The notes beneath the pieces are model-generated. The model saw only the letters and a list, made by a program, of their open reading frames with translations, was not told the DNA's origin and did no database searches. 64,000 nucleotides of DNA from NCBI GenBank assembly GCA_937924525.1, contig CALDSU010000005.1:434001-498000 (forward strand), in the 5' to 3' direction. Below, piece by piece: positions 31,838 to 34,558 of this stretch. The DNA comes from an uncultured Bryobacteraceae bacterium. Lineage in GTDB: Bacteria; Acidobacteriota; Terriglobia; Bryobacterales; Bryobacteraceae. Positions within the stretch are counted from its first letter, which is position 1, and each line of letters begins with the position of its first letter. Made by a program: the position numbers and the translations under genes.

Positions 31838-32563
31838 TCACTCGATCTCGGTGACAAAAGCGTCGGCCAGCGCGGCATGTTCGCGGCGGACCCGGGCGGC
31901 AAGCGATTCGGCTTCCTCCCGCGTGGCGGGCGCGCCCACCAGCACCCGGTACCACACGGGCGATGCCTGCCGGCGCTGGACCCGCGCCGCGCCGTAAGCC
32001 TCCTCCATTTCCGCGCGAAGGAGTTCCGCCGCGGACTCGTCGCGAAACGCCGCGACCTGCACCGCGAACCGGCGCGAGGGCGCCGATGGCTGCGGGGTCT
32101 GGGGCGGCGTGGCTGGCGCGCGCGGCGCGGACGCCGCCGGAGCGGAAATCACCTCCAGCCGCACCTTCGCCAGTCCCGCGATCACCATGTCCAACAGTTC
32201 CGCCGCCCTGCGCGAAAGATCGATGATCCGCCCGTCGATGAATGGCCCGCGGTCGGTGATGCGCACCTCGACTTGCTTTAAATTGGTCAGGTTCGTCACG
32301 CGCACCCAGGTTTCGAAGGGCAGGGTCCGGTGCGCCGCGGTCATGCCGTTCATGTCGTACGTTTCGCCATTGGCGGCTTGCCGCCCATGGTAGGGGTAGC
32401 CGTACCAGCTCGCAATGCCGGTCTCGGTCCAACCCGGCGGCCGCGGAATCGCCTTCGGCGCGGCCGCGGGAGGCGGCGCGGGAATCCGCGCGCGTTTCGG
32501 CTTCTTGCCGCAGCCGGCCAGTAGCGTCAGCAGAGCCAGCGCTCCCGCCGTGAGCAGCCTCAT
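31838..32563 (-). CDS. rlpA: RlpA-type lipoprotein with SPOR domain
   Basis: This 241-residue lipoprotein has the lipobox LLAGC with Cys18. The double-psi beta-barrel domain is at residues about 50-135: ETGIASWYGYPYHGRQAANG, TYDMNGMTAAHRTLPFETWV and VRITDRGPFIDGRIIDLS, with the catalytic-type Asp in TDRGPF. A Pro/Ala linker leads to a C-terminal SPOR domain (FAVQVAAFRDESAAELLRAE to VWYRVLVGAPATREEAES) that binds denuded septal glycan. RlpA cuts stem-peptide-free peptidoglycan during division in Pseudomonas. It is divergent from lctP across only 47 bases, so their promoters must overlap. Confidence 0.92.
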   Translation of the reverse strand: MRLLTAGALALLTLLAGCGKKPKRARIPAPPPAAAPKAIPRPPGWTETGIASWYGYPYHGRQAANGETYDMNGMTAAHRTLPFETWVRVTNLTNLKQVEVRITDRGPFIDGRIIDLSRRAAELLDMVIAGLAKVRLEVISAPAASAPRAPATPPQTPQPSAPSRRFAVQVAAFRDESAAELLRAEMEEAYGAARVQRRQASPVWYRVLVGAPATREEAESLAARVRREHAALADAFVTEIE

Positions 32564-32610
32564 TGAATGTGATACTATCGTGCGCTTGCCGCGGGCGGCA
32601 ATCCTTCCTC

Positions 32611-34257
32611 ATGACCACCTGGACGCAGAACTACAACCCCCTCGGGAACGCCTGGCTGTCGACCGCCGTGGCCGCCACGCCGGTCGTGCTGCTGTTTTAT
32701 CTCCTCGCCGTGCGGAAAATCATCGCCTACCGTGCGGCGCTGTACTCCTTTGCGGTAGCCGTCGTGCTGGCCGCGTTCGTCTTCGGCATGCCGGCGCCGA
32801 TGCTGACCGGGGCGGTCGCGCACGGACTGGTGTACGCGGTGGTCCGCATCGCCTGGACGCTGCTCGCCGCCGTGTTCGTTTACGAGTTGACGGTCGCGAG
32901 CGGGCATTTCGAGGTCATCAAGGAGTCGATCGGCGGCGTCACTCCGGACCGGCGCCTGCAAGTGTTGCTCATCGCCTTTGCGTTCGGCGCGGTGCTGGAG
33001 GGCGCGGGGGGCGGCGGGGCGCCGGTCGCCATCGCCGGCGCCATGATGGCGGGTCTGGGGTTCCGCCCGTTCGACGCCGCCGTCCTGTGCCTGATTGCGA
33101 ACACGGCGCCGGTCGCCTTCGGCGGCGTCGGCAATCCCATCCGCGTGCTGGTGGCGGTCACCGGCCTGCCCGAGGCGGATCTCAGCGCCATGGTGGGCAG
33201 AATTCTGCCGATCACCGCCCTGATCCTACCCTTTTGGCTGGTGCGCTCGATGACCGGCTGGCGCGGCACGTTTGCCGTCTGGCCGGGGTGTCTCGCCTGC
33301 GGCGCGGTCTTCGGCGCGTGCCAGTTCTACTGGTCGAACTATCAGGACGCCGCGCTCGTCGACATCATCGGCGGCATGGTCACGCTGCTGGTGCTCGCCT
33401 GCTTCTTCCGCGCCTGGAGACCGGCGGAAACCTGGCGCTACCCCAATGAACCGCCTCCCACCCTCAAACCGCGCCCCTATACGCCGCGGGAGATCATCCA
33501 CGCCTGGTCGCCGTTCCTGCTGCTCTCGGCCTTCGTCATCCTCTGGGGCATGCCCGCGCTGAAGCAAGTCCTGAACGCCTCCACCCTGAGCATCCCGGCT
33601 CCCTGGCTGCACAACCAGGTCATCCGGGTCGCGCCGGTCGTCGACCAGCCGCACGCCGAACCCGCCATCATGGAGTTCGCCTGGCTCTCGGCGGTGGGTT
33701 CGGCCACGTTTCTCGCCGGCTTGATCTCCGGTCCGATTCTCGGTCTGAGCGTCCGCCGCACCTTTGAGGTTTTTTTCCGCACCTGCTACCGCATGCGTTT
33801 CAGCATGCTCGCGATCCTGGGCATGCTGGGCCTCGGCTTCGTCACCCGCTATTCGGGCATGGACGCCGTGATGGGTCTCGCCATGACGCACACCGGCTGG
33901 CTGTTCCCGTTCTTCGGCACCATGCTCGGCTGGCTCGGCGTGGCGCTCACGGGAACCGACGCGGGGTCCAACGCGCTCTTCGGCAGCTTGCAGGTGATCA
34001 CCGCGCACCGCCTGGGCATCAGCGAAGTGCTGATGGCTTCGGCCAACTCCGCGGGCGGCGTGATGGGCAAGATGATCGACGCGCAGTCGATCATCGTCGC
34101 CTGCGCGGCGGTCGGCGAGGAAGGCCGCGAGGGCGATCTGTTCCGCGCGGTGCTGTGGCACTCCATCGCCCTCGCCGCCATCGTCGGCCTGATCGTCTAC
34201 TGGTTCGCCTATCACGGCCAGCAGTTCATCCCCGCGGGGCGCGTCTGGGGCGGTTGA
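32611..34257 (+). CDS. lctP: L-lactate permease
   Basis: I chose the ATG at 32611 (MTTWTQNYNPLGNAWLSTAV), where lactate permeases usually begin; the frame opens at 32563. The 548 residues contain about 13 membrane segments. Family marks are VYELTVASGHFEVIKESIGG, IAFAFGAVLEGAGGGGAPVA, LCLIANTAPVAFGGVGNPIR and LGVALTGTDAGSNALFGSLQ, plus SANSAGGVMGKMIDAQSIIV near the end. It takes up lactate or glycolate with protons. The gene ends 45 bases before a strong terminator hairpin. No lactate dehydrogenase gene adjoins it here. Confidence 0.94.
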   Translation: MTTWTQNYNPLGNAWLSTAVAATPVVLLFYLLAVRKIIAYRAALYSFAVAVVLAAFVFGMPAPMLTGAVAHGLVYAVVRIAWTLLAAVFVYELTVASGHFEVIKESIGGVTPDRRLQVLLIAFAFGAVLEGAGGGGAPVAIAGAMMAGLGFRPFDAAVLCLIANTAPVAFGGVGNPIRVLVAVTGLPEADLSAMVGRILPITALILPFWLVRSMTGWRGTFAVWPGCLACGAVFGACQFYWSNYQDAALVDIIGGMVTLLVLACFFRAWRPAETWRYPNEPPPTLKPRPYTPREIIHAWSPFLLLSAFVILWGMPALKQVLNASTLSIPAPWLHNQVIRVAPVVDQPHAEPAIMEFAWLSAVGSATFLAGLISGPILGLSVRRTFEVFFRTCYRMRFSMLAILGMLGLGFVTRYSGMDAVMGLAMTHTGWLFPFFGTMLGWLGVALTGTDAGSNALFGSLQVITAHRLGISEVLMASANSAGGVMGKMIDAQSIIVACAAVGEEGREGDLFRAVLWHSIALAAIVGLIVYWFAYHGQQFIPAGRVWGG

Positions 34258-34302: not shown

Positions 34303-34333
34303 GCGCCGGCGGGCCTCCGGCGCGCATTTTTTT
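34303..34333 (+). terminator. Rho-independent terminator after lctP
   Basis: The stem GCGCCGG/CCGGCGC (34303-34309 with 34317-34323) has a 7-base loop and is followed by a run of seven T at 34327-34333. It lies 46 bases after the lctP stop. Confidence 0.8.
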
Positions 34334-34334
34334 C

Positions 34335-34363
34335 TTGACATCGCCGGGGAAGCACTCTATATA
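34335..34363 (+). promoter_or_regulatory. Strong sigma-70-type promoter of the Lys/Ala peptide gene
   Basis: A perfect TTGACA lies at 34335-34340, and after exactly 17 bases TATATA lies at 34358-34363. Initiation is expected near 34370, leaving a leader of about 50 bases. It begins one base after the T-run of the preceding terminator. Confidence 0.8.
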
Positions 34364-34418
34364 TGAATCACCTGCGATTTTTTCAATCGCAAACTTTGAT
34401 GTTAGGGAGAATCAATCG

Positions 34419-34490
34419 ATGAAGACCGCAACGAAGAAGGCCGCGAAGAAGGCTCCGGCGAAGAAAGCCGCGGCGAAGAAGAAGAAGTAA
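34419..34490 (+). CDS. 23-residue Lys/Ala-rich basic peptide (histone H1-tail-like)
   Basis: The ATG at 34419 follows the ribosome site AGGGAGA (34404-34410) at a good distance. The peptide has 11 Lys, 8 Ala, 2 Thr and 1 Pro after Met, arranged as KKAAKKAPAKKAAAKKKK, so its net charge is about +11. The pattern equals the repeats in histone H1-like proteins and in the Lys-rich tails of bacterial HU/Hc1/Hc2 proteins, but here it stands alone without a globular domain. The gene has its own consensus promoter and a strong terminator, so it should be well expressed. It may bind DNA or RNA and compact the nucleoid. A non-coding RNA that happens to hold this frame is the alternative. Confidence 0.65.
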   Translation: MKTATKKAAKKAPAKKAAAKKKK

Positions 34491-34525
34491 GCAAGACGTC
34501 CCAGGAGGACGTGGAAACTTTCCCC

Positions 34526-34558
34526 AGACCCCGGGCTCTCCCGGGGTCTTTCGTTTTT
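34526..34558 (+). terminator. Rho-independent terminator of the Lys/Ala peptide gene
   Basis: A perfect 10-base-pair stem AGACCCCGGG/CCCGGGGTCT (34526-34535 with 34540-34549) has a CTCT loop and is followed by TTCGTTTTT to 34558. A smaller hairpin (ACGTCC/GGACGT, 34496-34501 with 34507-34512) lies between the stop codon and this one. Confidence 0.92.

Follow-up and report, generated by a model that had tools for sequence, protein, structure and literature searches.

The lysine-rich unit in the window—the whole 64,000-nucleotide stretch of DNA analyzed here—is a real protein-coding gene. We assign a probability of roughly 0.55 to the reading that it is an independently transcribed gene for a minimal, H1-tail-like polycation, which would bind DNA by charge and help to organize the nucleoid. 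Below, we lay out the evidence for the gene from its parts in the window and its conservation among relatives, and then weigh DNA against other candidate partners of the peptide.

A short lysine-rich gene with its own promoter and terminator

The first-pass annotation of this DNA had described a TTGACA-17-TATATA promoter, a ribosome site, an 11-lysine, 23-residue peptide, and a 10-base-pair terminator. All four parts are in place (Table 1): the two promoter boxes stand at the claimed spacing, an AGGGAG precedes the ATG, and the ORF runs through 23 codons, 11 of them for lysine, to a TAA. With a G+C content of 65%, the 64-kb window contains exactly one ATG-initiated ORF of 15–120 codons with at least 30% lysine, namely this one, and the same criterion returned none in 40 first-order Markov sequences of window length. 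By DNA match, no other copy of the unit was found in its own genome.

Table 1 Features of the lysine-rich unit and its upstream context in the window
Feature	Position	Strand	Evidence
Lysine-rich peptide ORF, product MKTATKKAAKKAPAKKAAAKKKK	34419–34490 (stop included)	+	In-frame pN/pS; leader-defined sites
Promoter, TTGACA (34335–34340), 17 nt, TATATA (34358–34363)	34335–34363	+	Conservation in relatives
T-tract GCATTTTTTTC abutting the –35 box	34324–34334	+	Sequence; column counts in 114 distinct relatives
5′ leader hairpin TGCGATT-TTTTC-AATCGCA	34373–34391	+	Covariation, 40 leaders
Shine-Dalgarno AGGGAG	34404–34409	+	GGAGA invariant in 45 aligned promoter-leader sequences
Small hairpin ACGTCC-CAGGA-GGACGT in the interval from stop codon to terminator	34496–34512	+	Sequence and predicted fold
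Intrinsic terminator, 10-bp stem (34526–34549) with T-rich tail	34526–34558	+	Terminator scan
Presumed RlpA/SPOR-like lipoprotein gene (named from its motifs), usual upstream neighbor in relatives	31838–32563	–	tblastn; context only

A terminator scan of the window gave two terminator-like sites against 1.1 expected per shuffle, so that the match is weak by itself. Among relatives, 122 of 127 non-redundant loci have a terminator-like hairpin 3′ of the ORF. These 127 are what remained of 131 non-redundant closed ORFs once four with less than 30% lysine were dropped; ORFs cut off by a contig end or longer than 200 aa had been excluded beforehand. Short hairpins resembling the one upstream of the terminator are visible in several relatives.

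Selection acts on the reading frame

Coding capacity was assessed by comparing same-length ORFs that differ at no more than 25% (679 pairs, limited to ORFs of up to 60 aa at loci that match the promoter regex). In frame, pN/pS was 0.131 versus 1.18 and 3.05 in the other frames, so that the peptide is under purifying selection. Codon positions 1, 2, and 3 account for 1407, 640, and 4231 differences, respectively (680 pairs, stop codons included), and ten different DNA sequences code for one identical peptide; the pairs in these codon comparisons overlap and are not independent, and the numbers are descriptive and carry no significance test.

We also searched with a covariance model made from the promoter and leader of 45 sequences, devoid of any ORF sequence, whose training loci all had a lysine-rich ORF. 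With this leader-only model, 136 of the family's 150 genomes (104 of 108 good-quality ones) each yielded a single site; of the 14 genomes without a match, ten are outside the good-quality set. Behind the 136 sites lie 133 closed lysine-rich ORFs and two that run lysine-rich to the contig end, and the ORF is lost in one case (L342). Where several starts fitted, the one giving the highest lysine fraction was taken, except for four loci that were read from the leader instead. The promoter–peptide–terminator layout that had been proposed for a search in relatives is kept, with changes that are mostly synonymous. Frameshifts combined with a conserved RNA structure, named in the first-pass annotation as the mark of a non-coding RNA, are not the rule: a leader hairpin is conserved, but the ORF is intact and lysine-rich at 133 of 136 sites found by the leader alone. 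Three genomes in which the ORF is lost or truncated, all of one genus, are exceptions (see below).

Promoter and leader form a conserved module

The pattern TTGAC(A/T)-16 to 18-T(A/T)TA(A/T)A is present in 115 of the 127 non-redundant loci. In the 114 distinct relatives bearing it, the spacer measures 17 nt in 112, every –10 box is followed by CA (114 of 114), and neither the three central T nor the last C of ATTTTTTTC varies; these statistics are restricted to ORFs of up to 60 aa at loci that match the regex and are thus conditional on it. Within the window’s genome, TTTTNNCTTGAC-N17-19-TATAWA occurs a single time. A sigma-70 scan of the window did not list the promoter because the scan rule requires the sixth base of the –10 box to be T; accordingly, it is conservation in relatives, not the scan, that backs the promoter.

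The T-tract GCATTTTTTTC is probably an upstream promoter element. In the window, lctP (32563–34257) separates the unit from the RlpA-like gene, and the T-run of the lctP terminator (34303–34334) coincides with this tract. It had been stated that the promoter starts one base after the lctP terminator, which holds for the position; the T-run, however, is part of the promoter module itself, since three central T and the last C are invariant in relatives although lctP was found in only two of 30 loci, window counted.

The leader hairpin covaries. Across 40 leaders, picked for variety from 87 listed, 92.4% of cells are paired, compared with 30–49% in slid controls, and double changes occur at eight of nine pairs. 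The 30 double-change cells compare with 7.0 in shuffles, and none of 500 shuffles scored as high. Among all 101 distinct leaders, 93% have a stem of at least 6, as against 60% of mononucleotide shuffles. Folding of the whole transcript was mildly better than that of shuffles (z –1.6; 13 of 200 shuffles equally good), and we therefore claim structure for the leader hairpin alone. Transcription is predicted to start at A34370; if the start is the conserved A, the 5′ end is separated from the stem by three or four bases. A stem near the 5′ end of an mRNA is a known means of slowing 5′-end-dependent decay, and the leader hairpin probably acts in this manner.

Composition and length of the peptide

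Over the 3,445 residues that follow the first Met in 133 relatives, the composition is 47% lysine, 35% alanine, 8% proline, and 5% threonine (1631 K, 1200 A, 266 P, 167 T, 90 N, 3 R, and 1 E). Given the high G+C content of the genome, the retention of lysine and avoidance of arginine hint at a need for lysine as such. Low-complexity peptides made up half of lysine are expected to be disordered, and the product is expected to be a disordered polycation.

At the 133 leader-defined sites, the product measures 18–97 aa with a median of 23; 116 products are shorter than 30 aa and 13 have at least 40. Longer forms come from several genera: behind the same leader, ORFs of genus g5 span 38–120 aa, those of g51 50–66 aa, and those of g59 and g67 76 and 44 aa, respectively. 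Genus g12 has products of 73 and 79 aa plus two genomes with 24 aa, and g52 has 52 aa in one genome and 20 aa in another. The repeat units of the long forms—AAAPAKK, AAAPKK, AAPAKK, and KKATKKA—differ from each other, which suggests several repeat expansions.

Distribution and gene neighborhood

When the 235-base unit served as a DNA query, 45 of 61 genomes gave a match, the window’s own counted. The weaker or short matches were lysine-rich stretches in other genes and were not counted as the unit. All 30 loci from this search (window included) have an intact lysine-rich ORF of 18–27 codons with a similar promoter and leader. By tblastn, an RlpA-like gene was found in 20 of these loci, a methyltransferase-like gene in 21, and at least one of the two in 26; by ORF clustering, 19 loci have the RlpA-like gene upstream in divergent orientation, and 21 have the methyltransferase-like gene downstream in convergent orientation. 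These directions of the flanking genes argue that the unit is transcribed alone.

A pattern scan of named genomes returned at least 118 stretches. Among the 80 listed, 75 carry acidobacterial titles, many of them naming Bryobacterales, Bryobacteraceae, or Solibacteraceae; three listed matches (L041, L096, and L109) turned out to be unrelated or different ORFs. The unit was also seen in records titled Acidimicrobiia and Bordetella parapertussis (L070 and L072), whose titles look wrong.

When 200 genomes sampled from the class were searched with the leader model, matches came from 39 genomes of the window’s family, f1, and seven outside it; the latter matches are weak (E 1.3e-5 to 5.3e-4) and precede ORFs of 14–21 aa such as MKCATKKPAKKKAKKK and MATKKKAAKKAAKKKH. 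In family f11 of the same class, a start pattern occurred in 85 of 109 genomes; when reversed, it occurred in none of the 399 genomes listed. The f11 ORFs were read in 34 of the 85 genomes (37 rows, three places counted twice), and 34 of 34 are lysine-rich, 12–24 aa long, and preceded by a promoter-like sequence. Neither the RlpA-like nor the methyltransferase-like gene was found in any of 33 f11 loci compared, and orthology with f11 is consequently argued from the module alone. A second start pattern in families f5, f6, f7, and f13 (six genomes) led to other ORFs in the five cases read (L374–L378). Outside the class, start-pattern matches in two of 349 genomes were the starts of unrelated longer proteins, and a second scan matched one of 299 genomes at two places, of which the one read is unrelated. 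No lysine-rich peptide of such kind was thus seen among the places read outside the class.

Loss of the unit and second lysine-rich genes

Genus g52 departs from the general pattern. Two of its genomes, G120 (L342/L365) and G220 (L352/L364), retain the promoter and hairpin and have lost the ORF; in a third, G308 (L366), the ORF is truncated and the hairpin is not evident by eye. In four further g52 genomes, the leader was not detectable. Loss or truncation in three genomes, together with an undetectable leader in four more, argues that the unit is dispensable in this genus. Six g52 genomes (L379–L384) have another MATKK-type lysine-rich gene, coding for 25–97 aa behind a different promoter. 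This second gene is present in three of the seven g52 genomes with a missing or damaged unit and was not seen in the other four, and it may be a replacement for the lost unit.

Extra MATKK-type lysine-rich ORFs of 22 and 94 aa were also noted in G402 (L385) and G232 (L386), where the main unit is present as well. In genus g8, two genomes (G007 and G417; L387 and L388) encode H1-like proteins of 100–114 aa beginning MATKKP; their genes have a leader hairpin and GGGAGAAT, yet other neighbors.

Relation to known families

The first-pass annotation had called the peptide “H1-tail-like”. The composition and the in-frame growth to H1-like lengths bear this out, but no family cut-off is reached. The window peptide had no match among Pfam or NCBIfam models, nor had the 76- and 87-aa relatives, and the 79-aa relative had none in Pfam. 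A 52-aa relative matched HC2 (PF07382) with an E-value of 1.2e-5 and 26 bits, below the cut-off of 40, and scored 26.9 against a required 80 bits for NF038053 and 16.7 against 135 bits for NF038052; a further match of this relative is to Extensin, a plant family of low complexity.

Hc2 (Chlamydia hctB) and the Hc2-like proteins of Bordetella and Burkholderia are described as Lys-Ala-Pro-rich, with length variation by repeat number (PMC2848022). The acidobacterial peptide is likewise dominated by these three residues, with one acidic residue in 3,445 (133 relatives), and varies over 18–97 aa, repeats being visible in the long forms; both are thus low-complexity Lys-Ala-Pro polycations of variable length (PMC2848022). 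They differ in size, 149–237 aa for Hc2 and Hc2-like proteins and usually 18–27 aa for the acidobacterial peptide, and, set against Hc2, the latter has a promoter and leader conserved over the whole family. We infer that the peptide is H1-like in its proposed action, yet outside HC2 by the cut-off.

AlgP of Pseudomonas aeruginosa offers a second comparison. It is described as having a KPAA-rich tail with a composition like that of the H1 C-terminus and DNA and polyphosphate granules as partners, and as being required for even granule spacing (PMC9239181). AlgP is larger, consisting of an N-terminal part and a repeat tail of 154 aa, whereas the acidobacterial peptide is free-standing. The HU/IHF-type proteins (PF00216), four of which are encoded in the window’s genome, are small basic nucleoid proteins as well, but HU has a fold. 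None of the three that were read has a lysine-rich tail.

At Rfam gathering scores, the window contains a tRNA only. A covariance-model match to sX6 (RF02225) over the ORF and terminator reached 22.1 bits versus a gathering score of 40 and was gone when a shorter stretch was searched at E 0.1; as a sub-threshold match, this identity was set aside. sX6 of Xanthomonas resembles the unit in being a short separate transcript and was first taken for an sRNA and later reported to encode a protein (PMC5559785). In the literature searched, no description was found of the gene, or of free-standing H1-tail peptides of 12–30 aa under a conserved module.

Mode of action and alternative explanations

In the mechanism that we favor, a strong promoter and an mRNA-protecting 5′ hairpin would give rise to many copies of the peptide. 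Disordered and with about 11 positive charges, it would bind DNA by charge and with no sequence preference, much as has been proposed for the tails of H1, Hc2, and AlgP, and the bound peptide would help to compact or organize the nucleoid. Length would be tolerated because charge density counts, and some genera may gain valency by repeating Lys-Ala-Pro units. It counts for this reading that the three HU proteins read, of four in the genome, have no lysine-rich tail that could do the same work.

The main rivals to DNA as the partner are RNA and polyphosphate, which the same chemistry would bind. That the peptide serves mainly RNA or the ribosome, as a small basic RNA-binding or ribosome-associated factor, fits its composition and size equally and had been raised in the first-pass annotation; short basic ribosomal peptides also exist in other bacteria. 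However, the range of 18–120 aa among relatives is unlike that of ribosomal proteins, and no sequence match with a ribosomal family was found, and we consider this partner unlikely. Polyphosphate or another storage polyanion, with the peptide nucleating or tethering granules, ranks next and is likewise unlikely: AlgP, with its KPAA-rich, H1-like tail, does associate with polyphosphate granules (PMC9239181), but the AlgP N-terminal region is absent from the acidobacterial peptide, whose usual neighbors are the RlpA-like and methyltransferase-like genes.

A small structured RNA as the functional product, with the ORF incidental, would account for the covarying leader hairpin, for the two loci that retain promoter and hairpin but no ORF (L342 and L352), and for the sub-threshold sX6 match. 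The low in-frame pN/pS and the 133 of 136 intact ORFs make it very improbable, as do the unremarkable fold of the whole transcript, the truncated G308 locus with no evident hairpin, and the four g52 genomes lacking the leader; sX6 itself, moreover, is reported to encode a protein (PMC5559785). More improbable still is a secreted antimicrobial or signal peptide, which the small size and strong cationic charge would suit: no hydrophobic face or signal sequence can be seen in the sequences, and the unit is found in 136 of 150 family genomes, unlike bacteriocins. Hardly credible, finally, is an attenuator leader peptide that senses lysine supply for a downstream gene, despite lysine making up half of the codons and a terminator following them, because in 21 of 30 related loci the gene that follows lies on the opposite strand, the lysine-rich ORF grows to 120 codons, and the window’s next gene, although co-oriented, has no known connection with lysine.

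Implications

The DNA-binding polycation remains the reading that we carry forward. A gene conserved across the family, with a promoter pattern unique in its genome, has no Pfam or NCBIfam model. At 23 codons, it falls below the usual length limits of gene calling, and automatic gene callers plausibly miss it. If the peptide acts like an H1 tail, few candidate chromatin or condensate proteins would be smaller, and its relatives would provide natural length variants for asking how DNA compaction depends on charge and valency. Tentatively, and at somewhat less than an even chance, we propose that H1-tail micropeptides of 12–30 residues are an ancestral, class-wide architectural factor, retained under a single conserved promoter–leader module, from which H1-like proteins of ordinary length arose repeatedly by in-frame repeat growth without change of locus. 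If so, a minimal form of H1-like proteins would still exist today, with natural lengths grading from 12 to 120 residues, and the unit would offer a concrete route for their origin.
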